A stretch of 64,000 bases of DNA from contig NZ_CP092915.1 in NCBI RefSeq assembly GCF_022557175.1, forward strand, positions 5,208,001 to 5,272,000, read 5' to 3'. Positions 3,261-44,109 of this stretch are shown here, one piece after another. Source of the stretch: Mycolicibacterium sp. YH-1. Lineage in GTDB: Bacteria; Actinomycetota; Actinomycetes; Mycobacteriales; Mycobacteriaceae. How positions within the stretch are numbered: position 1 is the stretch's first letter; every line of letters begins with the position of its first letter. The notes under the pieces are model-generated. The model had not been told where the DNA came from, did no database searches, and saw only the letters and a program-made list of their open reading frames with translations. The translations under genes were made by a program, and so were the position numbers.

Positions 3261-3323
3261 CGCCGAACGTGAAGTTGTTGGCGAGACGCCTGCGTGGATT
3301 CGTCAACAACTTCACGTTCGGCG
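3261..3323. repeat. Intergenic palindromic element, copy 1
   Basis: A perfect 20-bp inverted repeat (3261-3280 with 3304-3323) around a 23-nt loop. The outer arm is CGCCGAACGTGAA, shared with three other copies in this window. The inner stem here is GTTGTTG/CAACAAC, different from the other copies but still fully paired. It starts two bases after the nei stop and ends seven bases before the desaturase stop, so it could act as a bidirectional terminator. No U-tract follows. Confidence 0.85.
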
Positions 3324-3330
3324 AGAGGGC

Positions 3331-4467
3331 CTAGTTCGGCAGGGCCAACTTGAAGATCTTGCGGATGACGGTGCCGAACTGCCTGGGCAGCGGACCCTTG
3401 TTGTAGGGCACGCCGTAGCGCTCGCAGATGTCCTGCACCTGGGGAGCGATCTCGGCGTGTCGGTGAGCCGGGATGTCGGGGAACAGGTGGTGCTCGATCT
3501 GGAATGACAGGTTGCCGCTCATGATGTGAAACAGCTTTCCACCCGTGAGGTTCGCCGATCCGAGGATCTGACGGAAGTACCACATGCCGCGACTCTCGTT
3601 CGCGGTCTCCTCCTTGGTGAATTCCTGTGTGCCGTCTGGGAAGTGGCCACAGAAGATGATCGAGTACGACCAGATGTTGCGGATCAGGTTGGCGGTCATG
3701 TTGCCGGTGAAGACCCACGGCGCGAAGGGGCCGGCGAGCAGCGGGAACGCAAGGTAGTCCTTGACTGTCTGGCGACTGACCTTGTGCCAGATGCCCGTGA
3801 GGGTCTCGCGCTTGTCGGCGATCGAGATCTCACCGGAGCGGATGCGCTCGGTCTCCAGTTCGTGCAGGGCGACGCCGTACTGGAAGAACACCATCAACAG
3901 GAATGCGTAGACGGGGTTGCCGAGGAAGTACGGCTTCCAGCGCTGGTCCTCGCTCATCCGGAGGATGCCGTAGCCGATGTCGCGGTCCATGTCGACGACG
4001 TTGGTGTAGGTGTGGTGCATGTAGTTGTGCGAGTGACGCCACTGATCGCTCGGGCACGCCGAGTCCCATTCGAAGTTGCGGCCCGTGAGCGCGGGGTCAC
4101 CCATCCAGTCGTACTGGCCGTGCATGACGTTGTGGCCGATCTCCATGTTGTCCAGGATCTTCGACGCGGCCAACATGGCGGTGCCGGCCAACCAGGCTGG
4201 CGGCAGCACGCCCGCGAACAGCAGTCCGCGACCGCCGACCTCCAGCGCCCGCTGCGCCTTGATGACGCGCCGGATGTAGGTGGCGTCGCGCGCGCCGAGA
4301 TCGGCGACGACACGCTCCCTGATGGCGTCGAGTTCGCGGCCGAAGGCCTCCGCGGTCTCGGGCGTCATGGTGACGGTCTTGCCGGCGACGGTCTTGGTGA
4401 TGGTCTTGGGTTCGGGGCGTTCGAGCGTGGGGCGTTCGGGCGTGGGGCGTTCGAGTGTGGCAGTCAT
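3331..4467 (-). CDS. Membrane acyl-CoA/acyl-lipid desaturase (DesA3-like)
   Basis: A 378-residue integral-membrane fatty acyl desaturase that places a double bond in acyl chains using a di-iron centre. The three histidine boxes are present: HNVMH near residue 112, HSHNYMHH near 145 and FQIEHHLF near 325. Hydrophobic pairs lie around residues 85-105 and 215-270. ATG 4467 is preceded by a strong GAAGGAG site. The N-terminus has a short Pro/Glu-rich repeat (RPTPERPTLERPEP). It is co-transcribed with the ferredoxin reductase 32 bp upstream, which would supply electrons, as with DesA3 and Rv3230c in M. tuberculosis. Fast growers carry several DesA3 paralogues, so the exact orthologue is not assigned. 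Confidence 0.88.
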   Translation of the reverse strand: MTATLERPTPERPTLERPEPKTITKTVAGKTVTMTPETAEAFGRELDAIRERVVADLGARDATYIRRVIKAQRALEVGGRGLLFAGVLPPAWLAGTAMLAASKILDNMEIGHNVMHGQYDWMGDPALTGRNFEWDSACPSDQWRHSHNYMHHTYTNVVDMDRDIGYGILRMSEDQRWKPYFLGNPVYAFLLMVFFQYGVALHELETERIRSGEISIADKRETLTGIWHKVSRQTVKDYLAFPLLAGPFAPWVFTGNMTANLIRNIWSYSIIFCGHFPDGTQEFTKEETANESRGMWYFRQILGSANLTGGKLFHIMSGNLSFQIEHHLFPDIPAHRHAEIAPQVQDICERYGVPYNKGPLPRQFGTVIRKIFKLALPN

Positions 4468-4499
4468 GGTGAACTCCTTCTCGGTTGAGATCGGTTGGG

Positions 4500-5585
4500 C
4501 TAGAGCGCCAGGGCGACGTCGCCGACCGGGGCGGTGACGCAGATCTGCACGTCCTCCCCGTCGGACGTCGACACGGCGCCGGTGATGAGGTTCTTGACCG
4601 CACCACTGGTCTTGCGGCGGGTGCAGGTGTGGCAGATGCCCATCCGGCATCCGCTCTCGGGTGTGAGCCCGGCGGCCTCGGCCTGCTCGAGCAGCGAGCG
4701 GCCGTCGTCGGTGATCTCGACGCCACTCTGCGCGAAGGTCACGGTGCCACCGGATGCCGCGGTCGGAGCCGCGAACACGGGCGGGACGAAGCTCTCGGAC
4801 CTCGCGTCCGGGCAGTGCCTCCGAACGGCCTCGACCAATGCTGGCGGACCGCAGACGAACACCGAGTCGGGGTTCGGCATCGCGAGCGCCAGGTGGTCGG
4901 CGTCGAAACGTCCGACGAGGTCTCCCGAGCCGCCCCGGGTGAACCCATGCAGGACCCGGACTCCGGTCATGGCCGCGAGCTGGTCGGCGTAGCAGGCGTC
5001 CGCCGGGGTGCGCGCGTAGTGAATGAATGCGATCTCGGCGCCGTCCTGATCGGTGTGCCGTTCGGCGACGAGTGTCCGCAGCATCGCCAGCACCGGCGTG
5101 ATGCCGCTGCCGCCGGAGACGAACAGAATGCGCTTGGGCCGCTCGGCGGGCAGGACGAAATCGCCGCCGACGGCCTCGAGCCCGACGACCATGCCGGGCC
5201 GCGCATTGCGGTGGAGGTGCCCTGAGACCAGTCCCCCGTCGTGTACGCCGACGGTCAGCTCGATCAGTCGGTCATTCTCGGCGTTGGCAGGTGAGTAGCA
5301 GCGGGTCCGTCGGCGGCCGTCGACCTCGACGGTGAGGTTGACGTGTTGGCCCGCCGCCAGGGTGCCGCGTTGAGTGAACACGGCGTTCGATTCCAGCGTA
5401 AGGGTGACGCTGCGCGGGGTGTCTCGCCGGACCGCGACGATCTTGGCGCGGGCATCACCCAGGGTCCAGGTGGGCTCGACCAGCTCGGTGTAGCGGTCGA
5501 CACCGTGGGGTCCGGCCAGGACGCTGACCAGGGCTGAGCGCAGCACTCGATCGCGGAGGCGCGGCTTCGAAGTTTCGGTGAACAT
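4500..5585 (-). CDS. Ferredoxin reductase partner of the desaturase
   Basis: A 361-residue oxidoreductase with an N-terminal FAD domain (RCYSPANAEN, the RxYS flavin motif, near residue 100), an NAD(P)H domain (FVSGGSGITPVLAM near 165) and a C-terminal plant-type [2Fe-2S] domain with GCRMGICHTCTRR and a last cysteine in VQICVTA. It resembles Rv3230c, which delivers electrons to DesA3. ATG 5585 is preferred. A GTG at 5651 would add 22 residues but lies inside the palindromic operator shared with the divergent TetR gene, so it is probably promoter DNA. Confidence 0.87.
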   Translation of the reverse strand: MFTETSKPRLRDRVLRSALVSVLAGPHGVDRYTELVEPTWTLGDARAKIVAVRRDTPRSVTLTLESNAVFTQRGTLAAGQHVNLTVEVDGRRRTRCYSPANAENDRLIELTVGVHDGGLVSGHLHRNARPGMVVGLEAVGGDFVLPAERPKRILFVSGGSGITPVLAMLRTLVAERHTDQDGAEIAFIHYARTPADACYADQLAAMTGVRVLHGFTRGGSGDLVGRFDADHLALAMPNPDSVFVCGPPALVEAVRRHCPDARSESFVPPVFAAPTAASGGTVTFAQSGVEITDDGRSLLEQAEAAGLTPESGCRMGICHTCTRRKTSGAVKNLITGAVSTSDGEDVQICVTAPVGDVALAL

Positions 5586-5640
5586 GTGTATACCGTCCGC
5601 CTCGTCGGTCCAGATCGTCAAGGGGTTTCCGCACGTTGTG

Positions 5641-5670
5641 GTACGGTTCACAAACAGTGAACAGTCGTAC
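5641..5670. promoter_or_regulatory. Palindromic operator between desaturase operon and TetR gene
   Basis: GTTCAC-AAACA-GTGAAC (5646-5662) is a perfect inverted repeat. It is embedded in outer arms GTACG (5641-5645) and CGTAC (5666-5670), giving a nearly 30-bp palindrome. It lies between the divergent desaturase operon and the TetR gene and overlaps the likely TetR start. The TGAAC/GTTCA core resembles my recollection of sites for TetR-type regulators of fatty acid desaturation such as Pseudomonas DesT. A role as the operator for the adjacent regulator is inferred. Confidence 0.6.
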
Positions 5671-6322
5671 TCCTAAGTCACAGTCGTCTCGCTCTCGGCG
5701 GGACGGCTTGTCACGTGAGGAACGGAAAGAGGTCACCCGACGAGCGATCGTCGACGCCGCTCTCGCGCTTCTGGAGAACCGCAGCTTCAGCGCGTTGAGC
5801 CTCCGTGAGGTGACCCGTGAGGCCGGTATCGTTCCCGCCGCGTTCTACCGGCACTTCGAGTCGATGGACGCGCTCGGCCTGGTCCTGATCGACGAGTCAT
5901 TCCGTGCGCTGCGCGACATGCTGCGCGGCGCCCGCGCGGGCAAACTCGACCCGAACCGGGTCATCGAATCGTCGGTCGACATCGTGATCGCGAGCGTCAA
6001 CGAGCGCCGCGAGCACTGGCGACTCATCGGCCGCGAACGCAACAGCGGAGTGACCGTGCTGCGGTACGCCATCCGCACCGAGATCCGCCTCATCACCTCT
6101 GAACTGGCGATCGACCTGACGCGCTTCCCCGGCCTGCACACGTGGAGCGGCGAGGACCTCAACATCCTGGCCACACTGATCGTCAACGCGATGATCTCGA
6201 TCGCCGAGGCCATTGAGGACGCCAAGGACGCGGCCGCCATCGAGGACGTTCGACGCACCGCGGTCAAGCAGCTGCGCCTCATCGTCGTCGGCATCACGGG
6301 GTGGCACAGCAGCACTCCCTGA
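5657..6322 (+). CDS. TetR-family regulator of the desaturase operon
   Basis: A 221-residue TetR repressor. The helix-turn-helix is at about residues 30-70 (SFSALSLREVTREAGIVPAAFYRHF) quoted in part as REAGIVPAAFYRHF. The rest is a ligand-binding all-helical domain with no recognised metal site. It is divergent from the desaturase/reductase operon, the arrangement of the DesT and FabR systems that sense saturated and unsaturated acyl-CoA. The GTG at 5657 is chosen by similarity of the basic leader to related proteins; an in-frame GTG at 5636 would add seven residues. The start codon lies inside the palindrome at 5641-5670, so autorepression is likely. Confidence 0.8.
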   Translation: MNSRTPKSQSSRSRRDGLSREERKEVTRRAIVDAALALLENRSFSALSLREVTREAGIVPAAFYRHFESMDALGLVLIDESFRALRDMLRGARAGKLDPNRVIESSVDIVIASVNERREHWRLIGRERNSGVTVLRYAIRTEIRLITSELAIDLTRFPGLHTWSGEDLNILATLIVNAMISIAEAIEDAKDAAAIEDVRRTAVKQLRLIVVGITGWHSSTP

Positions 6323-6358
6323 GTCGCGCATAGGGTCGGGCCAGACCGAGGAGAAACA

Positions 6359-7141
6359 ATGGCGAACCTGGAACTGTCCCGTCCGCGTCCGGACATCGTG
6401 GTGCTCACCCTGAACCGGCCCGACAAGCTCAACGCGTTGAACCACGGCCTGGTCGAGGATCTGCACGCCACACTCGATGACATCCGGGCTGACGACCAGT
6501 GCCGCGTCGTCGTCCTGACGGGTGCGGGCCGCGGATTCTGCTCGGGGCTGGACCTCACCGAACCGTCCCCGGACGCGGCCTCCGGTGGCCTGGAGTTTCC
6601 GCGTTCGGGTATGCGGTGGCAGGAGCGCATCGCCGAGCTGACCACGAAGTTGTCTCGCCTGCGGCAGCCGGTGATCGCGGCGGTCAATGGGCCGGCCTAC
6701 GGAGGTGGCTTCGCGCTGGCGCTGGCGTCAGACATTCGCATCGCCTCGGAGTCGGCCAGGTTCTGCACACAGTTCATCAAGTTGGGCCTGGGTGGCTGCG
6801 ATATCGGGGTGAGCTACACACTGCCGCGCATCGTCGGCGCGGGCCAGGCGTTCGACCTGATCCTCACGGCCCGCACGGTCGATGCCGCCGAGGCGCTCGA
6901 GCTCGGGCTCGTCTCACGACTCTCGGCGGGTTCGGTAGTCGAGGACGCACTGGCGCTGGCCGAAACACTGTGCGGCTACGGTAAGTTCGGGGTGGAGTCG
7001 ACCAAGCAGGTGCTGTGGGCCAACCTGGAGGCACCCAGCCTGGATGCGGCGTTGCAGGTGGAGAACCGCAGCCAGATCCTTGCGTCCACCAGCGGTGAGC
7101 TTCTAGAGGCGGCCGCGGCGTTCACGAAGCGGAAGGCCTAG
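6359..7141 (+). CDS. Enoyl-CoA hydratase/isomerase family protein
   Basis: A 260-residue crotonase-fold enzyme. The two oxyanion-hole segments are GAGRGFCSGLDL (near residue 60) and NGPAYGGGFALALASDIRIA (near 110). The second catalytic acid region reads GGCDIGVSY, with Asp where classical hydratases have Glu; this variant is common in actinobacterial family members. A GAGGAG ribosome site lies seven bases before ATG 6359. The substrate is unknown. It is followed after six bases by the threonine aldolase-like gene, so the two are probably co-transcribed. Confidence 0.82.
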   Translation: MANLELSRPRPDIVVLTLNRPDKLNALNHGLVEDLHATLDDIRADDQCRVVVLTGAGRGFCSGLDLTEPSPDAASGGLEFPRSGMRWQERIAELTTKLSRLRQPVIAAVNGPAYGGGFALALASDIRIASESARFCTQFIKLGLGGCDIGVSYTLPRIVGAGQAFDLILTARTVDAAEALELGLVSRLSAGSVVEDALALAETLCGYGKFGVESTKQVLWANLEAPSLDAALQVENRSQILASTSGELLEAAAAFTKRKA

Positions 7142-7147
7142 CCGGAC

Positions 7148-8233
7148 ATGACCCCCGCCTCGCTCCACGATCCCGACTGGCGCGGGTTCGCCAGCGACAA
7201 CTACGCCGGCGTCCACCAGGAGGTCCTAGATGCAATCGCCGCGGCGAACGGCGGCCATCAGGTCGCCTACGGTGAGGACGCCTACACCACCCAACTGCAG
7301 GACGTCGTCCGGCAGCACTTCGGCACCCGAGCGGAGACGTTCCCGGTGTTCAACGGCACGGGAGCCAACGTCGTGTCGCTCACGAGCCTGCTCCCCCGCT
7401 GGGGAGCGGTTGTCGCGGCGACGTCGGCGCACATCAACACCGACGAAGCGGGCGCCCCCGAACGGATGACGGGCATCAAACTGCTCACCGTGCCGACACC
7501 AGACGGCAAGCTCACCCCGGAGTTGATCGCCACCGAGGCCTGGGGGTGGGGCGACGAGCATCGCGCGCAGCCACTCGCGGTGAGCATCACGCAGACAACG
7601 GAACTCGGCACGGTGTACACACCCGACGAGGTGCGCGCGATCGCTGACTTCGCCCATGAACAGGGTATGGCGCTGCACATGGACGGCGCCCGACTGTGGA
7701 ACGCGGCCGCGGCGATCGGGGTCCCGTTGCGCGCGTTCACGACCGACGCGGGGGTCGACGTTCTCAGCATCGGCGGCACCAAGATTGGAGCGCTCGGCGC
7801 GGAGTCCGTCGTGGTTCTCGACCCGACCAGAACCACCGGCCTGATCTATCTACGCAAGTTGACGATGCAGCTCGCGAGCAAGATGCGGTTCATCTCCGCC
7901 CAGCTGCTCGCCCTTTTCGAGGACGACCTCGGTCTGCGCAGCGCCACAAACGCCAATGCGATGGCGCGGCGGCTCCGGCGCGCCCTTGAGGCAGGCATCG
8001 CCGATGGTGCGATCCGTGGGCTCGAGTTCATTCAACCGACGCAGGCGAACGCGATCTTCGCCACGTTGCCGACGGAGGCGGCCGATCGGATCCGCGAGCA
8101 CGTGCGCTTCTACGACTGGAACCGTGCCCGCGGCGAGGTGCGCTGGATGTGCGCGTGGGACACCACTGAGGCCGACGTCGACCACTTCGTAGAGGTCGTC
8201 CGCAGCGAACTCGACCGGCACTGGCGCGGCTAG
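7148..8233 (+). CDS. Threonine aldolase-family PLP enzyme
   Basis: A 361-residue fold-type I PLP enzyme of the beta-eliminating lyase/threonine aldolase family, which cleaves L-threonine or L-allo-threonine to glycine and acetaldehyde. Visible are the N-terminal SDNYAGVHQEV block, the Asp of LHMDGARLWNAA that pairs with the PLP nitrogen (near residue 178), and the Schiff-base lysine in SIGGTKIGALG near residue 211. Its stop codon overlaps that of the convergent SDR gene (sequence CTAG). Confidence 0.85.
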   Translation: MTPASLHDPDWRGFASDNYAGVHQEVLDAIAAANGGHQVAYGEDAYTTQLQDVVRQHFGTRAETFPVFNGTGANVVSLTSLLPRWGAVVAATSAHINTDEAGAPERMTGIKLLTVPTPDGKLTPELIATEAWGWGDEHRAQPLAVSITQTTELGTVYTPDEVRAIADFAHEQGMALHMDGARLWNAAAAIGVPLRAFTTDAGVDVLSIGGTKIGALGAESVVVLDPTRTTGLIYLRKLTMQLASKMRFISAQLLALFEDDLGLRSATNANAMARRLRRALEAGIADGAIRGLEFIQPTQANAIFATLPTEAADRIREHVRFYDWNRARGEVRWMCAWDTTEADVDHFVEVVRSELDRHWRG

Positions 8234-9000: not shown

Positions 9001-9052
9001 GCCCGTCAGTAGAACACGGTGCGAAACCGCCGTGACCGTTAGTGCGTGATCG

Positions 9053-9436
9053 TCAGTCCTTCATGGTCCAGACCGATGTCGCGATCAGGTCACCGTGCTC
9101 GAGCGCCGCGGTCCGGTGTTCGTGCACCTTGAGGTATTCCGGATCGGCGATCATGTCCAGGAACGCCTGTGGTGAGGGGTACTCGACGATCAGAATCGCG
9201 TCCCAACCCGGTCGCTCACCGGCGCCGATCACCGTCTCAGGTGACACTCCGGCGTAGCGCACCGTCGCTCCTGCCCGCGCAATGTGCGGCATCACCTCGC
9301 TGGCGTAGCGCAGATAGCGCTCTCTACCGCCGTCCACGCGGAACGTGAGCAGATTGACCATCACGACCGGCTGATCCGGCGGCCGCGCCGCGAGCTGCGC
9401 GAGCTGTCCGGGAGTGGGTTCCAACCGATTACTCAT
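9053..9436 (-). CDS. DUF1330 family protein
   Basis: A 127-residue protein with the dimeric alpha+beta barrel DUF1330 pattern: PVVMVNLLTF near the start, RYASEVMPHIARAGATV, then WDAILIVEYPSPQAFLDMI and the terminal HRTAALEHGDLI. The function of the family is unknown. ATG 9436 is chosen because the family begins there; the open frame continues upstream through the neighbouring secreted-protein gene. It lies five bases downstream of that gene's stop on the same strand. Confidence 0.8.
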   Translation of the reverse strand: MSNRLEPTPGQLAQLAARPPDQPVVMVNLLTFRVDGGRERYLRYASEVMPHIARAGATVRYAGVSPETVIGAGERPGWDAILIVEYPSPQAFLDMIADPEYLKVHEHRTAALEHGDLIATSVWTMKD

Positions 9437-9441
9437 GTCGA

Positions 9442-9756: not shown

Positions 9757-9817
9757 GCTCACTCCTTGGGCCGCTGCTGTGCATCTTGCCCCGCGGCGTG
9801 CACCGCGTGCGTCAATT

Positions 9818-29425: not shown

Positions 29426-30901
29426 ATGTGGATACCCGCCGTCGAGCGTATTCGCTCGAGTCGACGGGCCACCGCAGGCGCCGCAATGGTGCTGGCGCTC
29501 TCGTACGTACTTCTCGGTCGGCTGACATTCTCGGTATCCGTCGAACACAGCAACGTCACCAGCGTCGTCTTCGCCCCCGAGGGCATCGCCTTGGCGTTCT
29601 GCATACTGTTCGGGCCGCGTGTCGCATGGGGCGTGTTCCTCGGCCAGACCATCCTGTCGATCTGGACGGGTCCGTCGGTGCTGGGCGGTGCCGGCATCGG
29701 GCTGGTGAACAGCCTCGAGGGCATCCTCGGCGCGGCGCTGTTCGCGCGGTGGCGGATATCGCCGCAGTTCGCCCGGCCGCGCGATGTAGCCCTGTTCGTC
29801 GCCCTGGTGTTCCTGATCTTGCAGCCCATCAGTGCGACCGCCGGCGTGAGTGTGTTGTGGGGAGTGGGGGTCACCCCCGCCGATTGGATCCCCAGCGGCT
29901 GGGACGCCATGTGGATTCACGGGATTCAACGCCCGATCTCCGATCCGAGCCAGCTCCCGTCGGCGTGGGTGCACTGGTGGATCGGAAACTCCCTCGGCCA
30001 AATCCTGGTCGCACCACTGCTGCTGGCCTGGGCCACGAAGGGAACGTGGCGGCGGCCCGATAGCCGCGGCGACTTGCTTGCCAGTGCACTGGTCATCGGA
30101 CTGACGGGAATAGCAGCCACCGTGTTGCCCATTCACCCCGTGCTGGTGCTCGGCGTGACCTTCCCATTGCTGGTACTGATCGGGCTTCGGCGCGGCCTGC
30201 GCGGTGTGACCACGGCCAATGTCGTCATCACGCCAGCCGTCCTCTGGGCCGGCACCTCCGCCAAGAGATTCCTGGACCAGGTCAGCGTTCCGGATCGCCT
30301 TGCCTACGTCGGATTCTTTGTCGCGACCGCCTTCATCCTCTTCTCCTTGATGCTGTTCTCGATGTTCGAGGAACGCCGATTGCTGGTCGAACGGCTGGCA
30401 CGTCTCGCGCGCCAGGACTCGCTGGTTCCGCTGGATAACCGGCGCCATTTCGTCGAGCAGCTCGAGCCACTCATCCAGCAGGCAACCGCACGCGGCAGCC
30501 CTTTGGCAGCAATAACTTTCGACATCGACCACTTCAAGCTCATCAACGACACCAACGGCCACGCGGCCGGCGACCGAGTACTCATCGCTGTGGCCAACAC
30601 ATGCAAAGCACTGCTACGCGACACCGACATCGCCGCTCGGATCGGTGGCGAGGAGTTCGCCATCGTGCTCCCCGACACCGACGTCGCCGACGCGCAACGA
30701 TTCGCCGATCGACTCCGCAGTACCATCGCTGTGCAGCACCTCGTGGCCTCTGACGCAACGGCGGCCGCTGCCATCACCATCAGCGTCGGTGTCGCCGCCC
30801 TGCAGCCGGGTGATTCCCTCGATGACTTCCTCAACCGCGCCGACGCGGCCCTGTACGACGCGAAACGAGGTGGCCGGGACATGGTGGTGGTTGGTCGGTG
30901 A
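29426..30901 (+). CDS. MASE1-GGDEF diguanylate cyclase, copy 1 (with I-site)
   Basis: A 491-residue membrane diguanylate cyclase that would make c-di-GMP from GTP. Residues 15-320 are an eight-or-so-helix MASE1-type sensor (blocks VVFAPEGIALAFCILFGPR and HWWIGNSLGQILVAPLLLAW, quoted as FAPEGIALAF and WWIGNSLGQ). Residues 330-490 are the GGDEF domain with the active loop RIGGEEF (GGEEF 407-411). An RxxD inhibitory site, R398-D401, lies five residues before it, so feedback inhibition is expected. The sensor ligand is unknown. A close paralogue follows immediately. Confidence 0.88.
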   Translation: MWIPAVERIRSSRRATAGAAMVLALSYVLLGRLTFSVSVEHSNVTSVVFAPEGIALAFCILFGPRVAWGVFLGQTILSIWTGPSVLGGAGIGLVNSLEGILGAALFARWRISPQFARPRDVALFVALVFLILQPISATAGVSVLWGVGVTPADWIPSGWDAMWIHGIQRPISDPSQLPSAWVHWWIGNSLGQILVAPLLLAWATKGTWRRPDSRGDLLASALVIGLTGIAATVLPIHPVLVLGVTFPLLVLIGLRRGLRGVTTANVVITPAVLWAGTSAKRFLDQVSVPDRLAYVGFFVATAFILFSLMLFSMFEERRLLVERLARLARQDSLVPLDNRRHFVEQLEPLIQQATARGSPLAAITFDIDHFKLINDTNGHAAGDRVLIAVANTCKALLRDTDIAARIGGEEFAIVLPDTDVADAQRFADRLRSTIAVQHLVASDATAAAAITISVGVAALQPGDSLDDFLNRADAALYDAKRGGRDMVVVGR

Positions 30902-30933
30902 CTCGCCTGCTCCCCACTGACATCCGCACCGAC

Positions 30934-32406
30934 ATGTGGACGAAATCGATCGAGCGGATTCGGTCGAACCCAAGGCACACCGCACTCGCTGCTCTTGTGC
31001 TGGCGTTCGCCTACGTTGTGCTGGGTCGGCTCACGTTCTCGGTGTCGGTCGAGAACAGCAATGTCACGAGTGTCGTCTTCGCACCCGAGGGCATCGCCTT
31101 GGCCTTCTGCATACTGTTCGGGCCGCGTGTCGCTTGGGGCGTGCTTGTCGGGCAGACGATCCTGTCCATCTGGTCTGGTCCGTCGGTGCTGGGCGGTGCC
31201 GCCATCGGACTGGTGAACAGCCTCGAATGCGCCCTCGGCGCGATTCTGTTCGCGCGCTGGCGGATCTCGCCGCAGTTCGCCCGGCCGCGCGATGTCCTCC
31301 TGTTCGTCGCATTGGTCTTCCTGATCTTGCAGCCGATCAGCGCCACCGGCGGGGTAAGCGTGCTCTGGGCGATCGGCACTACACCCGCGGATTGGATTCC
31401 GGACGCGTGGCAGGCGTTCTGGATTCAGGGGATCCAGCGCCCGCTTGCCGACCCGAGTGAGATCGCCCCGGCGTGGATTCATTGGTGGATCGGCAACTCC
31501 GTGGGACAGATGCTGATCGCACCGTTGCTACTCGCCTGGGCGATAAGGGGCGTCTCGCGCCGGCCGAAGTCGAGTTACGACCTCCTTGTCAGCGCGCTGG
31601 CCATCGGCCTGCTGGGCCTCGCCGCGACCAAGTTGACCATCTACCCGTTGCTGGTGCTCGGCGTGACCTATCCGCTGCTGGTCTGGATCGGGCTTCGGCG
31701 TGGCCTGCGCGGTGTCACCACTGCGAACGTCCTGATCGCACCGGCAATCACGTGGGCGGGAGCGGTCGGAACCGGTTTCCTATCGCATCTCGACGTTTCC
31801 GACCGCCTCGCCTATGTCAGCTTCTTCATCGCCACGGCCTCCATCTTCTCGTTGATGCTGTTTGCGATGTTCGAGGAGCGTCGGGTGTTGGTCGAACGGC
31901 TGGACGATCTCGCACGCCTCGACTCATTGGTGCCCTTGGCGAATCGCCGACACTTCGTCGAGAGCCTGCAACACGAACTCAGGAGGAGGACCGAACGCGA
32001 CGGTCCAGTGGCGGTCGTGGTCTTCGATGTGGACCACTTCAAACGCATCAACGACGAACACGGCCACGCGGCAGGCGATTCGGTGTTGATCGCCATCGCG
32101 CTCACCTGTCAGACGCGGCTGAAAGCGGGTGGGCTGGCGGCCAGGATCGGCGGCGAGGAGTTCGCCCTCGCTCTACCCGACACCGAACTCTCAGACGCCC
32201 ACCGATTCGCCGACCAGCTCCGCGACGCCATCGCACACCAGCATCTGACTCAGGACGCTTCCGACACGTTGATCCCCGTCACCGTCAGCGTGGGCGTCAC
32301 CGTGGCGCGGACTGCGGATTCGATCGACGCGATTCTCACCCGCGCGGACGAGGCTCTCTACGGCGCCAAAAGGGGCGGCCGGAACACCGTGGTTGTCAGC
32401 GAGTGA
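30934..32406 (+). CDS. MASE1-GGDEF diguanylate cyclase, copy 2 (I-site lost)
   Basis: A 490-residue tandem paralogue of the preceding gene, alike in both the MASE1 sensor and the GGDEF domain. The catalytic loop RIGGEEF is intact (GGEEF 406-410). The residues matching the RxxD site are K397 and G400, so product inhibition is probably lost. ATG 30934 aligns with the start of copy 1 (MWTKSIERI versus MWIPAVERI). A GTG at 30898 overlapping the copy 1 stop (GTGA) would add 12 residues and is a real alternative. The 3' end overlaps deoA by 11 bp. Confidence 0.87.
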   Translation: MWTKSIERIRSNPRHTALAALVLAFAYVVLGRLTFSVSVENSNVTSVVFAPEGIALAFCILFGPRVAWGVLVGQTILSIWSGPSVLGGAAIGLVNSLECALGAILFARWRISPQFARPRDVLLFVALVFLILQPISATGGVSVLWAIGTTPADWIPDAWQAFWIQGIQRPLADPSEIAPAWIHWWIGNSVGQMLIAPLLLAWAIRGVSRRPKSSYDLLVSALAIGLLGLAATKLTIYPLLVLGVTYPLLVWIGLRRGLRGVTTANVLIAPAITWAGAVGTGFLSHLDVSDRLAYVSFFIATASIFSLMLFAMFEERRVLVERLDDLARLDSLVPLANRRHFVESLQHELRRRTERDGPVAVVVFDVDHFKRINDEHGHAAGDSVLIAIALTCQTRLKAGGLAARIGGEEFALALPDTELSDAHRFADQLRDAIAHQHLTQDASDTLIPVTVSVGVTVARTADSIDAILTRADEALYGAKRGGRNTVVVSE

Positions 32407-37041: not shown

Positions 37042-37818
37042 ATGAGCGCACCCGTCATCGACAAGGTCGATCAGCAGGAACCCCCCGTGCCCGAGGGTGC
37101 GGTGATGGTGACCCTGAAGATCGCACGGTTCAACCCCGAGGATCCCGACGGCGCGGGCTTCCAGAGCTTCCGCGTGCCGTGCCTGCCGACGGACCGACTG
37201 CTGAACCTGCTGCACTACGTGAAGTGGTACCTCGACGGAACGCTGACCTTCCGCCGGTCGTGCGCGCACGGCGTGTGCGGTTCGGACGCCATGCGCATCA
37301 ACGGTGTGAACCGGCTGGCGTGCAAGGTGCTGATGCGCGACATGCTGCCCAAGAAGGCAGGCAAGCAGCTGACCATCACGATCGAGCCGATCCGCGGGCT
37401 GCCCGTGGAGAAGGACCTCGTCGTCGACATGGAGCCGTTCTTCGACGCGTTCCGCGCGGTCAAGCCGTTCCTGATCACCAGCGGCAACGAGCCCACCCGC
37501 GAGCGCATTCAGAGCCAGACGGACCGGGCGCGCTACGACGACACCACCAAGTGCATCCTCTGCGCGTGCTGCACGACGAGCTGCCCGGTGTTCTGGAGTG
37601 AGGGTTCCTACTTCGGGCCCGCGGCGATCGTCAACGCCCACCGGTTCATCTTCGACAGCCGCGACGAGGCCGCCGCCGAGCGCCTCGACATCCTCAACGA
37701 GGTCGACGGCGTGTGGCGTTGCCGCACCACGTTCAACTGCACCGAGGCCTGCCCCCGCGGCATCGAGGTGACCAAGGCAATTCAAGAGGTCAAGCGCGCG
37801 CTGATGTTCGCGCGCTAG
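37042..37818 (+). CDS. sdhB: Succinate dehydrogenase iron-sulfur subunit
   Basis: A 258-residue Fe-S subunit carrying electrons from FAD to quinone. The [2Fe-2S] motif CAHGVCGSDAM is near residue 74. The C-terminal ferredoxin domain has CILCACCTTSCPVFW near 172 and CTEACPRGIEVTKA near 232 for the 4Fe and 3Fe clusters. It is two bases downstream of sdhA. A palindromic element follows its stop. Confidence 0.96.
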   Translation: MSAPVIDKVDQQEPPVPEGAVMVTLKIARFNPEDPDGAGFQSFRVPCLPTDRLLNLLHYVKWYLDGTLTFRRSCAHGVCGSDAMRINGVNRLACKVLMRDMLPKKAGKQLTITIEPIRGLPVEKDLVVDMEPFFDAFRAVKPFLITSGNEPTRERIQSQTDRARYDDTTKCILCACCTTSCPVFWSEGSYFGPAAIVNAHRFIFDSRDEAAAERLDILNEVDGVWRCRTTFNCTEACPRGIEVTKAIQEVKRALMFAR

Positions 37819-37827
37819 ATGCAGGCG

Positions 37828-37892
37828 GCGTCGAACGTGAACTAAATGGCGAGTCCTCGCTGAATTCTCGCCATCTACTTCACGTTCGGCGG
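37828..37892. repeat. Intergenic palindromic element, copy 2
   Basis: Left arm 37828-37853 and right arm 37867-37892 pair over 26 bp with four mismatches. The outer core CGAACGTGAA/TTCACGTTCG and inner ATGGCGAG/CTCGCCAT are conserved. It lies between the convergent genes sdhB and the DUF559 gene and touches the DUF559 stop codon, so it can end both transcripts. Confidence 0.8.
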
Positions 37893-38744
37893 CTAGAAAG
37901 GGCCACCCGAGGCCTGTAATGCGGCCCGGGTCCGCCCGATGACAGTGGCCTCCCGGTACCGCATAAGGTCGGCGCCGACACGGACGATGCGCCAGCCCAG
38001 CTCGGCGTAGGCGACGCCCTGATCGATGTCACGGGCACGCTGCACAGGGTCGTCCCAGTGCTGCTTCCCGTCGTACTGGACGCCGACCTTCCATTCCGGC
38101 CAGCCCATGTCGAGTCGCCCCACGAACTGGTCGTACTCGTCGAACACCTCGATCTGCGTGTGCGAGGGACGCATACCCGCGAAGGTCAGCAGCAGACGCA
38201 GCCGGGTCTCCTGCGGCGACTCGGCGCCGTAGTCGGCCAGATCGAGCACGCGGCGCAGCTGGACCACACCGCGTGCGCCGCGATGCGAATCGAGAAGCGT
38301 CTGCACGTCAGGCAGTTTCAGCTCCCCTGCCTGCAGGAGCGCATCAACCCGGATGACCGCGGTCACCAGTCCGCGCTGGCGACCGAGGTCGAATGCGGTG
38401 CGCGCCGGTGTGGTCACCCGAATGCCGTCGAGCGCGCAGACGTCGTCCTCGGCGAGGTGATCGCTGTGCAGGATGATGCCGGTCGTCCTGTGCCTGCTGG
38501 GCTGGTTCAGCTCGGCGGGCAGGTTCGCGTCGATCCACAGCGATCCGTGCAGCGCCGCGGCCGAGAGACCCGCCACGACCCCGCGCCGCCCCGACCACAG
38601 CCATGCCGCCACCGCCTTGTCGACGGGGGTGAGCACCGCTCCGCTCGGCACGAACACATCGCGGTGCAGCATGTCGTGGCGGGTATTCAGCTGATATCGG
38701 TTTACGGCGCCCGCCGCGAGCGCCTCACTTCCCAGAAATGGCAT
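37893..38744 (-). CDS. DUF559/AbiEi-like protein with nuclease-like C-terminal domain
   Basis: A 283-residue protein of a family with many copies in mycobacteria. Residues 1-90 resemble an AbiEi-type winged helix (AWLWSGRRGVVAGLSAAALHG). The C-terminal 110 residues resemble DUF559/Vsr-like folds, with RLDMGWPEWKVGVQYDGKQHW, quoted in part as VGVQYDGKQHW. Relatives often have Glu where this has Gln in VQYDG, so nuclease activity is doubtful. ATG 38744 gives the family start MPFLGSEALA. ATG 38780 would begin two bases from palindrome copy 3, leaving no room for a leader. The gene is bracketed by palindrome copies 2 and 3. Confidence 0.7.
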   Translation of the reverse strand: MPFLGSEALAAGAVNRYQLNTRHDMLHRDVFVPSGAVLTPVDKAVAAWLWSGRRGVVAGLSAAALHGSLWIDANLPAELNQPSRHRTTGIILHSDHLAEDDVCALDGIRVTTPARTAFDLGRQRGLVTAVIRVDALLQAGELKLPDVQTLLDSHRGARGVVQLRRVLDLADYGAESPQETRLRLLLTFAGMRPSHTQIEVFDEYDQFVGRLDMGWPEWKVGVQYDGKQHWDDPVQRARDIDQGVAYAELGWRIVRVGADLMRYREATVIGRTRAALQASGGPF

Positions 38745-38781
38745 GTGGATAGGACGGTGCACGGGTCCGCCGCGTTCCATC

Positions 38782-38848
38782 CCCGCCGAACGTGAACAAG
38801 ATTGCGATAAATCCGTGGAGTTTCGCCATCTTGTTCACGTTCGGCGGG
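38782..38848. repeat. Intergenic palindromic element, copy 3
   Basis: Perfect 19-bp arms, 38782-38800 and 38830-38848, with outer sequence CCCGCCGAACGTGAACAAG. The stem continues inward with GCGA/TCGC pairing around a loop rich in AAATCCGTGGAG. It lies between the GntR gene stop and the 5' end of the DUF559 gene, both on the minus strand. Confidence 0.85.
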
Positions 38849-38865
38849 CAGCGCGAGTTCGGGGC

Positions 38866-39531
38866 CTACTCCAGCACGCCCAGCCCGGCCAAGTGATCAA
38901 TGAGCGGTTTCGCTCCCGCACACAGATGCTCGGCCATTGCCGTGCGGGCCGATTCGCCGTCGCGCTCCCTCAGCGCCGACAACACGCGCCGGTGATCGTG
39001 CATGGACTGTTCGGCCCAGCCGTCGACCGTCGGGAACACGGATTCCAGGGCGTACCGGGTGATCTGGGACATCAGCTGCGCCAGCTTCGGGGACCGAGCG
39101 GCGATGTTCACGCCGCGGTGGAACTCATGGTTGAGCCGGACCGCCCGATCCTGGTCATTCTGGGCGTGCGCGTCCTCGAGCTGCACCTGGAGGCGTTCGA
39201 GTTCGGCGATCTGATCATCCGTGATGTGCGCGGCAGCGCGCGCCGCCAGCTCACCACCGATGTGGCCCTGCACCCCGGCGACATCGTCGATGTCTCGTCG
39301 AGTGACGGGTAATACCGCGAAGCCACGTCGGGGCTGCTGAGTCAGCAGTCCCTCGGCCTGCAGACCGAATAGCGCTTCGCGCACGGGCGTCACGCTGATA
39401 CCCAGTTCCGCCGCGAGCTGTTCGAGACGGACGTACTTCCCTGCCGGGTAGGTGCCGTCGAATATCCGCCGGCGTACCAGGCGCGCCACATCGTCGGCCA
39501 GCTGCGGCACCGATGAATCCGGAGCGCTCAC
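38866..39531 (-). CDS. GntR-family (FCD) regulator of the acyl-CoA locus
   Basis: A 221-residue regulator with an N-terminal winged helix (about 10-75; YVRLEQLAAELGISVTPVREALF, quoted as LAAELGISVTPVREALF) and an all-helical FCD ligand domain (about 90-215), whose histidines (RLNHEFHRG near residue 130 and HDHRRVL near 180) suggest a bound metal or acid. It is the last gene of the SDR-thiolase-dehydrogenase operon, three bases after the dehydrogenase stop. Two TNGTATACNA-type sites in the divergent promoter at 42742-42777 are good candidates for its operators. Confidence 0.85.
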   Translation of the reverse strand: MSAPDSSVPQLADDVARLVRRRIFDGTYPAGKYVRLEQLAAELGISVTPVREALFGLQAEGLLTQQPRRGFAVLPVTRRDIDDVAGVQGHIGGELAARAAAHITDDQIAELERLQVQLEDAHAQNDQDRAVRLNHEFHRGVNIAARSPKLAQLMSQITRYALESVFPTVDGWAEQSMHDHRRVLSALRERDGESARTAMAEHLCAGAKPLIDHLAGLGVLE

Positions 39532-39534
39532 TGA

Positions 39535-40728
39535 TCAGATCCGGTAGTCGGCCAGCAACCGCTTGCTGATGATGTTCTTCTGGATCTCACTGGTGCCCTC
39601 ACCGATGAGCAGGAATGGCGCATCACGCATCAGGCGTTCGATCTCGTACTCCTTGGAGTAGCCGTAACCACCGTGAATCCGGAAGCTCTGTTGCGTGACC
39701 TCGGCACAGAACTCACTGGCGAGGTACTTGGCCATTCCGGCGGCGACGTCGTTGCGCTCTCCGGAGTCCTTCAGCCGCGCCGCGTTGACCATCATGAGGT
39801 GGGCGGCCTCGACCTTGGTGGCCATTTCGGCCAGCTGAAAGGCGATGGCCTGATGGTCGGCGATCGGCTTGCCGAACGTCTCCCGTTGCTGCGCATAGCG
39901 AATCGCGAGTTCGAAGGCACGGATGCCGACGCCGCAGGCGCGGGCCGAGACGTTGACCCGGCCCACCTCGACGCCGTCCATCATCTGGACGAAGCCCTGC
40001 CCGGCCACACCGCCGAGGACGTCGTCCGCGTCGGCGCGATAACCGTCGAAGATCAGCTCGGTGGTGTCGATGCCCTTGTACCCCAGCTTGTCGAGCTTGC
40101 CCGGGATCGTCAGGCCCGGCACCACCTCGCCGAATCCGGCTGGCTTCTCGATCAGGAAGGCGGTCAGGTTTCGGTGCGGTTTGTCCGCTCCCTCATCGGT
40201 TTTCACCAATGCGGCGACCAGGGTCGAACTTCCACCATTGGTCAGCCACATCTTCTGGCCGGAGATGCTGTAGTTGCCGTCCGCATCGCGGACACCCTTG
40301 GTGCGGATCGCCGCGACATCAGAGCCCAACTCGGGCTCCGACATGGAGAACGCGCCGCGGACCTCACCGGTGGCCATGCGCGGCAGGAACCGCTGCTTCT
40401 GCGCATCGGTGCCGTGCTGGCGGATCATGTAGGCCACGATGAAGTGGGTGTTGATGACGCCGGAAACACTCATCCAGCCGCGAGCCAGCTCCTCGACGCA
40501 CAGCGCGTAGGTCAGCAGCGACTCGCCGAGCCCGCCGTACTCCTCGGGGATCATCAGCCCGAACAGGCCCATGTCCTTCATCTGGTCGACGATGGCCTGC
40601 GGGTAGGTGTCGGAGTGCTCCAGTTCCTGGGCGGTCGGGATGACCTCCTTGTCGACGAACTGTCTTACCGTCGAGACGATCTCGGTCTGAATCTCGGTCA
40701 AACCCAGAGTCTGTGCCAGCTTGGTCAT
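39535..40728 (-). CDS. Acyl-CoA dehydrogenase
   Basis: A 397-residue FAD enzyme that introduces the alpha-beta double bond in an acyl-CoA. Visible are GAFSMSEPELGSDVAAIRT (FAD/substrate block near residue 130), ISGQKMWLTNGGSS near 165, and the C-terminal RIHGGYGYSKEYEIERLMRD with GEGTSEIQKNIISKRLL quoted as GEGTSEIQ. A Glu in the GYSKEYEIE region is a candidate catalytic base. It overlaps the thiolase stop by four bases (ATGA), and the GntR gene follows. The substrate is not known. Confidence 0.88.
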   Translation of the reverse strand: MTKLAQTLGLTEIQTEIVSTVRQFVDKEVIPTAQELEHSDTYPQAIVDQMKDMGLFGLMIPEEYGGLGESLLTYALCVEELARGWMSVSGVINTHFIVAYMIRQHGTDAQKQRFLPRMATGEVRGAFSMSEPELGSDVAAIRTKGVRDADGNYSISGQKMWLTNGGSSTLVAALVKTDEGADKPHRNLTAFLIEKPAGFGEVVPGLTIPGKLDKLGYKGIDTTELIFDGYRADADDVLGGVAGQGFVQMMDGVEVGRVNVSARACGVGIRAFELAIRYAQQRETFGKPIADHQAIAFQLAEMATKVEAAHLMMVNAARLKDSGERNDVAAGMAKYLASEFCAEVTQQSFRIHGGYGYSKEYEIERLMRDAPFLLIGEGTSEIQKNIISKRLLADYRI

Positions 40729-41951
40729 CGCGCGATCCTCTCGAACACGGCGGCCAGCCCCTGGCCGCCGCCGATGCACATGGTCTCCAGTCCGTAGCGG
40801 GCCTCGCGCAATTCGAGTTCACGGGCCAGGGTGGCCAGCATTCGTCCCCCGGTGGCGCCGACCGGATGGCCGAGCGAGATACCCGAGCCGCGCACATTGG
40901 TGCGCTCCAGATCGGCGTCGGTGAACTTCCATTCGCGCATACAGGCCAGCGCCTGGGCCGCGAACGCCTCGTTGAGTTCGATGAGGTCGATATCCGACAA
41001 TGCCAGCCCGGCATTATCCAGGGCTCGTGCAGTGGCGGGCACCGGGCCGATACCCATGATGTTGGGCGCGACACCGGCCAATCCCCAGGACACCAGTCGG
41101 ACAAGGGGTTTCAGGCCGAGTTCGGCCGCACGTTCGGGCGTTGTCACGATGCACATGGACGCGGCGTCATTCTGGCCGCTGGAGTTTCCGGCGGTCACAG
41201 TGGCGTCGGGATCGTTCTTGCCCAGCACCGGCCGCAGCTTGCTCAGCGCCTCAACCGAGGTGTCGGCGCGCGGGTGTTCGTCGGTATCGATCACCTCAGA
41301 ACCTTTGCGGGATGTCACGGTGACCGCAACGATCTCCTCCGCGAGTACCCCGCTGCGCTGGGCGGCGACTGCTCTCTGGTGCGAGCGGACCGCAAGTTCG
41401 TCCTGTTCAGTGCGCGAAATGCCGTACTGGCGGCGCAGATTCTCCGCGGTCTCCAGCATTCCGCCGGGCACCGGGTAGTTCTTGCCGCCTGCGGTGACCC
41501 GGCCACGGGCCAACCCGTCATGCACGGTGACACCACCCCGGGACCCGCCCCACCGCATGTCGGTGGAGTGGAACGCCACGTTGCTCATCGACTCAGCACC
41601 GCCAGCAATGACGAGATCGTTGCCGCCACTGGCCACCTGAAGGCAGGCCTGGATAACGGCCTGCAGCCCCGATCCGCAGCGGCGATCAATCTGCATACCG
41701 GGCACCGTGATCGGCAGTCCGGCGTCCAGTGCCACCACCCGTCCGATCGCCGGAGCCTCGCCCGACGGGTAGCAGTGCCCGAGAATGACGTCCTGCACGG
41801 CGTCGGCGGGCACCCCGGCGCGTTCCAGCAGGCCCTTGAGTACCGCGACCCCGAGTTCAACTGCGGTCAGTGATCCGAACATGCCGCCGTAGCGCCCGAT
41901 CGGGGTGCGAACCGGTTCGCAGATGACCGCTTCACGGGTGCCCGTGCTCAT
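40725..41951 (-). CDS. Acetyl-CoA acetyltransferase (thiolase)
   Basis: A 408-residue thiolase. The nucleophilic cysteine is in [16 protein letters not shown] (near residue 90). [12 protein letters not shown] near 340, [13 protein letters not shown] near 370 and the final cysteine in [14 protein letters not shown] near 395 complete the active site. It would cleave 3-ketoacyl-CoA in degradation, given its dehydrogenase neighbours. It is coupled by four-base overlaps to the SDR upstream and the acyl-CoA dehydrogenase downstream. ATG 41951. Confidence 0.9.
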
Positions 41952-42688
41952 ACGTGCCGACCCCCAGTCACTTCGAGCACGGTCCCGGTCATGTACGACG
42001 ACAGATCGCTCGCCAGGAACAGCGCCACCTTGGCGACCTCGTCTGGCTCACCGGCCCGGCCGATCGGAATCTCAGCGAGCTTCTGATCCCAGATACGTTG
42101 CGGCATGGCCTCGGTCATCGCCGAGCGGATCAGGCCCGGCTGGATCGCGTTGACCCGCACACCGAGGTGCGCCAGCTCCTTGGCCGCGGCCTTGGTCATC
42201 CCGACGATGCCCGCCTTGGCCGCCGAGTAGTTGGTCTGGCCGACCAGACCAACCTTGCCCGAGATGGACGACATGTTGACGATCGCGCCGGACTTGTTCT
42301 CCCGCATGATCGCCGTGGCGGACTTGAGGCCGTTCCAGGTGCCCTTCAGGTGGACGGCGATGACCTGGTCGAACTGGTCCTCGGTCATCTTGCGCAGCGT
42401 CGCGTCACGCGTGATGCCGGCGTTGTTCACCATGATGTCCAGCCCGCCGAACCGCTCCACCGCCGCCGCGACCAGTGCGTCGACGTCGGACCCGCGGGTC
42501 ACGTCACACTGGACCGCGGTGGCGACAGCGGCGCCGCCCAGCTGTTCGACAGCGGCCTCCGTTGCCTCCAGATTGAGGTCACCGAGCACCACCCGGGCAC
42601 CTTCGGAGATGAAGCGCTGCGCGATGGCAAGGCCGAGGCCCTGGGCACCACCTGTCACGACTGCAGTCTGGCCGGCCAGTAACGACAC
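41948..42688 (-). CDS. SDR, probable 3-hydroxyacyl-CoA dehydrogenase/FabG-like
   Basis: A 246-residue SDR resembling FabG. The cofactor motif is [15 protein letters not shown] (residues 10-24), NNAGITRD is near 87, the catalytic Ser is in [10 protein letters not shown] near 140 and YSAAK gives Tyr/Lys near 153. The ending [13 protein letters not shown] is typical. Its position as first gene of an operon with thiolase and acyl-CoA dehydrogenase suggests it oxidises a 3-hydroxyacyl-CoA. No hydratase gene is in the operon. GTG start. Confidence 0.85.
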
Positions 42689-42741
42689 CTGATCACCTGT
42701 CCCAACTCGATATCCGTGGTTCCGCCACCGTCGGCGTCCGC

Positions 42742-42777
42742 ATTTTCGTATACGATAGCAGTTTCATATACGAAAAT
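42742..42777. promoter_or_regulatory. Paired GntR-type operators in the divergent lipid promoter
   Basis: Two sites, TCGTATACGA (42746-42755, perfect palindrome) and TCATATACGA (42764-42773), lie 18 bp apart. Together they form a larger inverted repeat with ATTTTC/GAAAAT flanks and one mismatch in 14 bp. The TNGTATACNA form is characteristic of FCD-type GntR operators. The pair sits between the divergent SDR operon and the acyl-CoA dehydrogenase gene, so the GntR protein encoded at 38866-39531 probably controls both. Confidence 0.65.
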
Positions 42778-42834
42778 AACGCGCGGTTTCGCCGTGCTGC
42801 GAGCCAACCAGCCGAGCCAACAAGGAGTCCGTCT

Positions 42835-44031
42835 GTGACCCCCACCGCGAGTGACACCCCAGCCGTCGCCGAGGTCAGCGACGAGGACTTCAAGGAGATC
42901 CTGGCGCAGACCCGCACCTTCATCCGCAGCGCCGTCGTCCCGCGCGAGAACGAGATCCTGGCCAACGACAAGGTGCCCGACGATCTTCGCGACCAGGCCA
43001 AGGCGATGGGGCTGTTCGGCTACGCGATCCCCCAACAGTGGGGCGGCCTGGGCCTCAACCTCGCCCAGGATGTCGAGCTGGCAATGGAATTCGGCTATAC
43101 CTCGCTGGCCCTGCGGTCGATGTTCGGCACCAACAACGGCATCGCCGGTCAGGTGCTGGTGGGCTTCGGCACCGAGGAGCAGAAGAGCACGTGGCTGGAG
43201 GGGATCGCGTCCGGGGATGTCGTGGCGTCGTTCGCGCTGACCGAGCCCGGCGCCGGGTCGAACCCGGCGGGCCTGCGCACCAAGGCCGTCCGAGACGGGA
43301 ACGACTGGGTGATCAATGGGCAGAAGCGCTTCATCACCAACGCCCCGACGGCGAATCTGTTCGTCGTGTTCGCCCGGACCCGGCCGGCCGACGATGCCGG
43401 CCCCGGGATCGCGGTGTTCCTGGTGCCCGCCGACGCCGCCGGCATCGCGGTCAGCGGCAAGGACGCCAAGATGGGCCAGGAGGGCGCCTGGACCGCCGAT
43501 GTCAGCTTCACCGACGTGCGGGTCTCCGGCAACGCGCTGATCGGTGGCAGTGAGGACGTCGGCTACCGCGCCGCAATGACATCGCTGGCCCGCGGCCGGG
43601 TGCACATCGCCGCGCTCGCCGTCGGCGCGGCCCAGCGGGCGCTCGACGAGTCGGTGGCCTACGCCGCCGCGGCCACCCAGGGTGGTCAGCCGATCGGCAG
43701 CTTTCAGCTGGTGCAGGCCATGCTCGCCGACCAGCAGACCGGGGTGATGGCGGGCCGCGCACTGGTCCGCGACGCCGCCGCCAAATGGGTGTCGGGCGAG
43801 GACCGCCGGATCGCCCCGTCGGCAGCCAAGCTGTTCTGCACCGAGATGGCCGGCAATGTCGCCGACCTCGCGGTACAGGTGCACGGCGGCACCGGCTACA
43901 TGCGCGAGGTGCCTGTGGAACGGATCTACCGGGAGGTCCGACTACTGCGTCTGTACGAGGGCACCAGCGAGATCCAGCGCCTCATCATCGGTGGCGGTCT
44001 GGTCAAGGCCGAACAGAGGAAGACTCGCTGA
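42835..44031 (+). CDS. Acyl-CoA dehydrogenase, divergent member of the GntR locus
   Basis: A 398-residue FAD acyl-CoA dehydrogenase. Blocks are FALTEPGAGSNPAGLRT (near residue 135), VINGQKRFITNAPT near 160 and VHGGTGYMREVPVERIYRE near 350, with LYEGTSEIQRLII at the C-terminus. GTG 42835 is preceded by AAGGAG. It is a paralogue of the dehydrogenase at 39535-40728 and is transcribed away from that operon across the shared GntR-type operators. Palindrome copy 4 follows its stop. Confidence 0.88.
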   Translation: MTPTASDTPAVAEVSDEDFKEILAQTRTFIRSAVVPRENEILANDKVPDDLRDQAKAMGLFGYAIPQQWGGLGLNLAQDVELAMEFGYTSLALRSMFGTNNGIAGQVLVGFGTEEQKSTWLEGIASGDVVASFALTEPGAGSNPAGLRTKAVRDGNDWVINGQKRFITNAPTANLFVVFARTRPADDAGPGIAVFLVPADAAGIAVSGKDAKMGQEGAWTADVSFTDVRVSGNALIGGSEDVGYRAAMTSLARGRVHIAALAVGAAQRALDESVAYAAAATQGGQPIGSFQLVQAMLADQQTGVMAGRALVRDAAAKWVSGEDRRIAPSAAKLFCTEMAGNVADLAVQVHGGTGYMREVPVERIYREVRLLRLYEGTSEIQRLIIGGGLVKAEQRKTR

Positions 44032-44044
44032 CCCTCTAGCCCCC

Positions 44045-44109
44045 CTGCCGAACGTGAAGAGAATTGCGAGAAATCCGCGAAGTTTCGTCATCTTGTTCAC
44101 GTTCGGCGG
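44045..44109. repeat. Intergenic palindromic element, copy 4
   Basis: The outer arms GCCGAACGTGAA and TTCACGTTCGGC are perfect; the inner stem is imperfect (GAGAATTGCGA opposite TCGTCATCTTG). It lies between the acyl-CoA dehydrogenase and the AhpD-like gene, both on the plus strand, and ends within the candidate -35 box of the SigJ-type promoter. It would shield that promoter from read-through if it terminates transcription. Confidence 0.8.

Follow-up and report, generated by a model that had tools for sequence, protein, structure and literature searches.

What kind of element is a palindrome that recurs between the genes of a mycobacterial chromosome, and what might it do directly behind their 3' ends? 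The question is raised by a window of 64,000 nt (the whole stretch of DNA analysed; NZ_CP092915.1, 5,208,001-5,272,000) from the 7,267,399-bp chromosome of Mycolicibacterium sp. YH-1, hereafter the host. A sequence-only reading of this window had pointed out four such palindromes and proposed selection for their structure. They were found where it had placed them, with cores of 61 bp, and they belong to a repeat family. The account that we hold to be somewhat better than an even bet is that its members are two-fold symmetric, REP-like (repetitive extragenic palindromic) 3'-end elements, which would act as bidirectional hairpins without a U-tract and would be renewed by conversion or replacement within each genome. 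The four window copies are the following:

3262..3322, no strand assigned: palindrome copy 1, 2 nt past the stop of a + strand gene (2492-3259, formamidopyrimidine-DNA glycosylase-like) and 8 nt past the stop of a - strand gene (3331-4650, fatty acid desaturase); the two genes are convergent
37830..37890, no strand assigned: palindrome copy 2, 11 nt past the stop of sdhB (37042-37818, + strand) and 2 nt past the stop of a - strand open reading frame (ORF, 37893-38780); orthologue in 19/19 best-matching relatives
38785..38845, no strand assigned: palindrome copy 3, 20 nt past the stop of a GntR-family gene (38866-39531, - strand) and 4 nt upstream of the called start of the - strand ORF 37893-38780; orthologue in 17/19 best-matching relatives
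44047..44107, no strand assigned: palindrome copy 4, 15 nt past the stop of an acyl-CoA dehydrogenase gene (42835-44031, + strand) and 35 nt before the next + strand gene (44143-44724)

Each of the four copies lies behind a gene 3' end, as had been claimed; the - strand ORF between copies 2 and 3 has no Pfam or NCBIfam match. The claim of shared outer arms holds in full for the 10-nt arms (CGAACGTGAA/TTCACGTTCG), which are exact in all four copies, but the 12-nt arms are exact in three only, copy 2 starting with GTCGAACGTGAA. Likewise, a centre of the TTGCGA type was seen in copies 3 and 4, but TTGCGA is absent from copies 1 and 2. The RNA folds of the copies range from -31.7 to -47.9 kcal/mol, and 0/200 shuffles were equally good for each. 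No further copies were found within the window by the family models, and Rfam at gathering score gave 0 matches in it.

The family extends across the whole host chromosome. A covariance model built from copies of 57-bp span (cut-off E up to 0.06) recognized 36 places, comprising 35 clear copies and a weak one at 6762259, which was excluded from the analyses of concerted change, gene ends and target duplications/half-sites; the count omits a match on one strand at 1775805 (E 0.2). Since 150 of 3650 first-look candidates were scored in the host, and 36 candidates per genome in the genus survey, the copy numbers given here are lower bounds. The 12-nt arm pair with a gap of 25-50 nt occurs at 11 places in the host chromosome, compared with 0 for a reversed-pattern control, which indicates that the palindromes are not a product of chance. 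With shorter exact arms, 19 host copies were obtained, 16 of which span exactly 57 bp. The word CGAACGTGAA is present 80 times in the host, against 3 times for the reversed word, and 49 of these occurrences fall inside the 36 palindromes. There, the arm word pair keeps a constant distance of 37 bp, and each half carries a near-invariant skeleton of approximately CGA-n3-TGA-n8-GCGA, in which individual bases are not all fixed. This leaves 31 occurrences of CGAACGTGAA elsewhere in the chromosome, a number still above that of the reversed word. In addition, six copies (1309494, 1724368, 1767986, 2638490, 2884562 and 3232029) have CCAACGTGAA in the left arm and a right arm that starts with TTCACG, the matching change being absent; all six lie at 1.3-3.3 Mb in the same + strand orientation, which may reflect the direction of replication or of genes.

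Most of the 36 host copies directly adjoin a stop codon. Gene ends around them were assigned by a simple GC-frame gene caller, with stop codons sought from -10 to 60 nt. By this approach, 28 of the 35 copies have a stop codon nearby, 9 of them on both sides, and the 37 gene ends concerned are 1-23 nt from the palindromes (median 9). Owing to its two-fold symmetry, one copy could serve both genes of a convergent pair. In the 9 nt beyond the hairpin, 19% of the bases are T, and at least 5 T were found at 1 of the 37 gene ends; the family therefore lacks a U-tract.

By comparing the sdhB region with that of other genomes, many of these sites could be followed between species (compared genomes are labelled by G-numbers, and compared loci or copies by L-numbers). 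The 19 relatives used were the best-matching of 396 genomes, so that they are no random sample; the palindrome after sdhB was kept in all 19 and the site approximately 950 bp further on in 17. Further sites common to relatives include L015/L175/L158, L122/L171/L161, L163/L182 and L168/L183. Many copies thus share their place between relatives with a DNA similarity of just ~80%, and lie in several syntenic blocks rather than in a single one. This orthologous placement means that many sites are old, and recent insertion as a rule was rejected on the same ground. The site of L014 (20 of 22 loci alignable) appears less stable: a family member was found in G389 and another inverted repeat, judged by eye, in G200, G096, G198 and G231; G034 and G011 have no palindrome although the same two genes converge, and the remaining loci differ or are unclassified. 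The other inverted repeat (GCGAGCGTGCGTGTCTGC...TTCACGCACGCTC, also by eye) was seen at the same gene end in L202, L203, L204 and L209, which are orthologues of the L014 site, and in L216 as well, and may represent another repeat family. A 16-nt word, GAGCGTGCGTGTCTGC, is present in 4 of 242 loci (L079, L202, L204 and L216).

The comparison between species also provides the strongest indication of a paired structure. Among 64 distinct mycobacterial copies (6 of 70, namely L057, L076, L078, L095, L098 and L115, were dropped because of non-mycobacterial labels, although L076 may be a real family member), the inner arms pair at 497/704 positions, compared with 268 (standard deviation, sd, 18) when arms are swapped between copies. 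This count includes an M. leprae match that pairs poorly (L102) and an M. lepromatosis match that pairs fairly well (L114), neither of which is relied on. For 34 copies of 57-bp span, a covariation score of 0.188 was obtained, compared with 0.097 (sd 0.011), with a number of double-change pairs that is not unusual (11 vs 10.0). At the sdhB site, 15 of 26 pairs have changed on both sides among 20 sequences, with 50 double-changed cells compared with 15.2 (sd 3.1) after shuffling and 5-10 in slid controls. When this site was mapped onto a tree of the adjacent coding DNA, single branches carried 39 paired double changes, compared with 1-5 in slid controls, and 34 single changes break a pair; because whole stems have been swapped in some lineages, the double changes do not amount to 39 independent events. 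A paired change private to one copy was also observed (CGTGGGATTT/AAATCCCACG in L189), and some relatives carry near-perfect palindromes. The proposal of compensating inner stems is thus borne out strongly across species but weakly within the host genome, and the case for selection on structure owes more to interspecies comparison than to the two examples from which it had been proposed. Neither of the outcomes named beforehand as refuting the sequence-only reading was obtained: further copies exist across the chromosome, and they occupy several syntenic blocks in relatives and show covariation.

Although the sites keep their place, moderate concerted change of the copies within genomes was observed. 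For the two neighbouring sites after sdhB, similarity is 0.657 within a genome and 0.515 between genomes in 18 genomes (L148 and L151, in which site 38782 was not detected, were not used), and 0/20000 permutations were as high; the two sites of one genome are also more alike than the orthologues of either site (0.580 and 0.491). In a broader test with orthologues excluded, based on 80 copies from 7 genomes (45 of them from six relatives, being their best ones and one of L140 rather than their full sets), similarity was again higher within than between genomes; 5/2000 permutations were as high, and 0/2000 when two sister genomes were merged. Genomes also have stem flavours of their own. GATCGCGA is present in 10/13 copies of G296 and 4/10 of G231 but in 0/35 host copies, and GCTTGTG in 5/6 copies of G333 and 1/35 host copies; at the sdhB site the GCTTGTG stem occurs in three relatives that are not mutual sisters on the gene tree. 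G389 carries GTGCGCGAAAGTGCGAG at the two neighbouring sites but in none of its three remaining copies; in G200, AAAGTGAA arms are present at the two neighbouring sites. Within the host, copies 356557 and 3091242, whose flanks are unrelated, agree at 35/37 inner positions (the 630 pairs average 20.5, sd 4.0), implying that copying or conversion occurs. Moreover, copies 6867221 and 6869056 (L006:4182-4245 and 6017-6080), which lie at neighbouring gene ends, have an identical run of 64 nt, which takes in the 40 nt before the palindrome, stop codon included, and 24 nt of the left arm, and then diverge, a conversion-like trace.

The distribution of the family was examined in the genus and the order. 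Exact short arms were detected in 47/297 genus genomes, with 0 for the control in every genome, and a second covariance model tolerating arm changes matched 112 of 148 sampled genus genomes (the host being included in both counts). In an order-wide draw of 121 genomes, this second model matched 11 genomes in 3/49 genera, the matches of G399 being counted without inspection, and scanning named genomes yielded 68 stretches, of which 62 have a mycobacterial label. Taken as half of the both-strand matches, copy numbers are approximately 37 in the host, 23 in G389 and G296, 21 in G213 and G231, and approximately 5-16 in five others. Mycolicibacter, Mycolicibacillus and some other species have a subfamily with nested TTCACG/CGTGAA inner-stem words (L055, L059, L067, L077, L083, L085 and others). 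No exact arms were found in viral contigs, and the copy of one relative, used as query, had no match in plasmid and phage records; a phage or plasmid origin was rejected on this basis.

Another genus of the order holds a second family, three of its genomes (G481, G422 and G439) having 31, 15 and 36 palindromes of approximately 61 bp with arms GATCATGAA/TTCATGATC (control 0); a fourth genome, G399, has no palindromes with these arms. In G481, a gene 3' end was found no more than 60 nt away for 15 of 21 examined copies. Comparing the half-site profiles of both families gave 14.4/26 expected identities, compared with 6.8 (sd 1.5) for permuted columns and 11.6 for the best shifted register; part of this likeness is due to ascertainment, since the second family was found through a model match. 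The relatives' half-site profile was based on 25 copies of G296, G231 and G333, with L159, L162, L179, L183 and all copies of G389, G213 and G200 left out.

Many copies keep their place between species, and sequences tend to change together within a genome; the palindromes therefore look more like common signals of gene ends than like hairpins that have nothing to do with one another. In the account favoured here, a transcript from either side would fold into a long hairpin of up to 26 pairs a few bases past the stop codon. This hairpin may mark the transcript end in one or both of two ways: by intrinsic termination without a U-tract (an I-shaped terminator), or by blocking 3'-5' exonucleases once Rho has stopped transcription further downstream. 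Short conversions or replacements would renew the sequences of the old sites from other copies within a genome, and genomes would drift to stem flavours of their own as the skeleton of each half persists. A trans-acting factor perhaps reads the element.

Several observations weigh against this account. In the 19 exact-arm host copies, the inner arms match at 151/209 positions, compared with 137 (sd 5.5) between copies (p ~0.007), a slight effect, and covariation from the host genome alone was set aside as too weak; the inner arms of the second family pair no better than chance (192/315 vs 200.7). For 7 of the 35 host copies no nearby stop was found by the simple gene caller, which probably missed some gene ends, because copy 6869056, without a caller hit, has the same 40 upstream nt with a stop as copy 6867221, which has one. 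Local conversion could explain the likeness of the two sites after sdhB, as they are just ~950 bp apart. The host (0.560) and G213 (0.577) are internally no more alike than they are with G296 or G231 (0.561-0.615), and several stem flavours coexist within one genome. Finally, a terminator needs no conserved sequence.

The weak pairing within host copies and its lack in the second family would fit two half-sites as well as a hairpin. The element could then be a DNA site, in which two inverted half-sites of 22-26 bp at constant spacing are bound at gene ends by a dimeric protein (nucleoid, topological or roadblock) and pairing is a by-product of the shared consensus, an explanation that we find rather doubtful. 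Both halves of the host copies follow one consensus with little within-copy pairing beyond it, as in the second family, the span of 57 bp in 16/19 exact-arm copies is constant with nearly invariant CGA, TGA and CGA positions, and the half-site profiles of the two families agree. However, the strong covariation at the orthologous sdhB site and private paired changes such as that of L189 speak against it, and dimer binding needs no complementarity of non-consensus bases. Covariation could in turn arise by mutation, since template switching in quasi-palindromes, a known mutational process, may repair one arm from the other with no structural selection. The near-perfect palindromes of some relatives agree with this idea, which is nevertheless very unlikely, as it leaves the position after stops, the constant span, the conserved skeleton and the concerted change between sites unexplained.

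The sequence-only reading had also named a small non-autonomous mobile repeat, a REP-like element and a terminator family as candidates. A selfish palindrome of the REP or MITE (miniature inverted-repeat transposable element) kind, which inserts at gene 3' ends through an unrecognised enzyme and whose position reflects tolerated targets, would account for 19 exact-arm copies in the host and none in 250/297 genus genomes, for the inner bases shared by 356557 and 3091242 in unrelated flanks, and for the absence of such a palindrome at the second of these sites in G034 and G011, where the same genes converge. Orthologous positions in genomes about 80% alike speak against it. The search for target duplications gave one signal in 42 length/offset combinations (3 nt, in 4/35 copies vs 0.79 shuffled, p 0.008 uncorrected), which is not convincing, and the results for viral contigs and for plasmid and phage records count against it as well. 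The Y1 domain (PF01797, the only transposase family searched) is absent from 9/10 carrier genomes; the sole Y1 transposase (L193, host 4962383-4962745, 145 aa) lies more than 200 kb from the nearest copy and would be IS200-like, judging by its length. A REP-associated tyrosine transposase (RAYT) or other Y1 transposase was therefore rejected as the driver, and a mobile repeat of this type appears unlikely. The REP-like and terminator suggestions fared better in that position, copy number and symmetry fit, but the evidence does not favour a REP driven by a RAYT. A last alternative is that the palindromes are ordinary intrinsic terminators, unrelated and alike by chance or composition; their position and hairpin shape are those of I-shaped terminators as described in a review (PMC12288462). 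As a full explanation such terminators are hardly credible and are refuted by the repeat family itself, with 11 arm pairs against 0 in the control of one genome, a control of 0 in every genus genome, and shared sequence at non-orthologous sites.

No earlier description of the 61-bp palindrome family was found in the open-access literature, judged by title or abstract start, and several known systems resemble it in part. The attC sites of integrons are imperfect palindromes of similar length with conserved ends; in contrast, this family consists of single dispersed host copies without arrays, and GCCGAAC/GTTCGGC does not fit the R-box pattern. We know of no link between the family and DNA uptake. 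Like REPs and REPINs with a RAYT, the family is short, extragenic, palindromic and present in multiple copies. According to one source, REPs are 20-40 bp long with GTAG or CGTC at one end (PMC3733652), whereas the family is 57-61 bp long and ends in GCCGAAC/GTTCGGC with variable flanks; no GTAG/CGTC tag was seen, and most carriers lack Y1. Mycobacterial genes are described in the review as mainly using I-shaped terminators without poly-U at most 50 bp from the stop codon (PMC12288462), which agrees with a hairpin within 50 bp of the stop and without poly-U. Unlike these, the family is a repeated sequence with near-invariant positions and concerted change, and for it a role in termination is putative. 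The title of a 2014 study by Czyz reportedly speaks against I-shaped (U-tract-less) terminators in mycobacteria. The uptake-signal dyads of Haemophilus, as covered in another paper (PMC5217627), share a repeated word, inverted pairs and gene 3' ends as terminators, but here the word pair has a constant 37-bp distance and 49/80 words lie inside the 36 palindromes. The same paper (PMC5217627) gives a palindromic CGAAA(N)19TTTCG motif pair from Mycobacterium, the same genus, which is distributed among genes and differs in sequence and spacing. Myt-1 and Myt-8 of M. tuberculosis, which a further study describes as structured stem-loop repeats of 72 and 92 bp (PMC2267715), are also dispersed mycobacterial repeats and could overlap with the family.

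Apart from the palindromes, the window contains two tandem stretches ~1.5 kb apart at 29442-32246 that are 72-83% identical in pieces and look like a duplicated gene, and direct repeats at 15-bp steps at 56776-56955 (nine overlapping 60-nt copies), which are probably coding.

In the review, U-tract-less transcript ending in mycobacteria is presented as disputed (PMC12288462), and an alignable repeat family in which compensating changes have arisen naturally at corresponding gene ends offers ready-made test sites, such as the one after sdhB. That sites stay in place and yet change in concert, with no RAYT in most carriers, calls for a homogenising or reading factor. It is conceivable, though we would not expect it, that a dedicated system for gene ends exists in mycobacteria and in at least one further genus of the order, in which a fast-evolving trans-acting factor reads the skeleton of the hairpin at dozens of 3' ends and either forms or protects these ends or homes replacement copies; a skeleton read by such a factor at dozens of ends would explain why the copies of a genome change together. 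If true, this would represent a sequence-specific network of 3'-end signals apart from Rho, U-tract termination and RAYT/REP systems.

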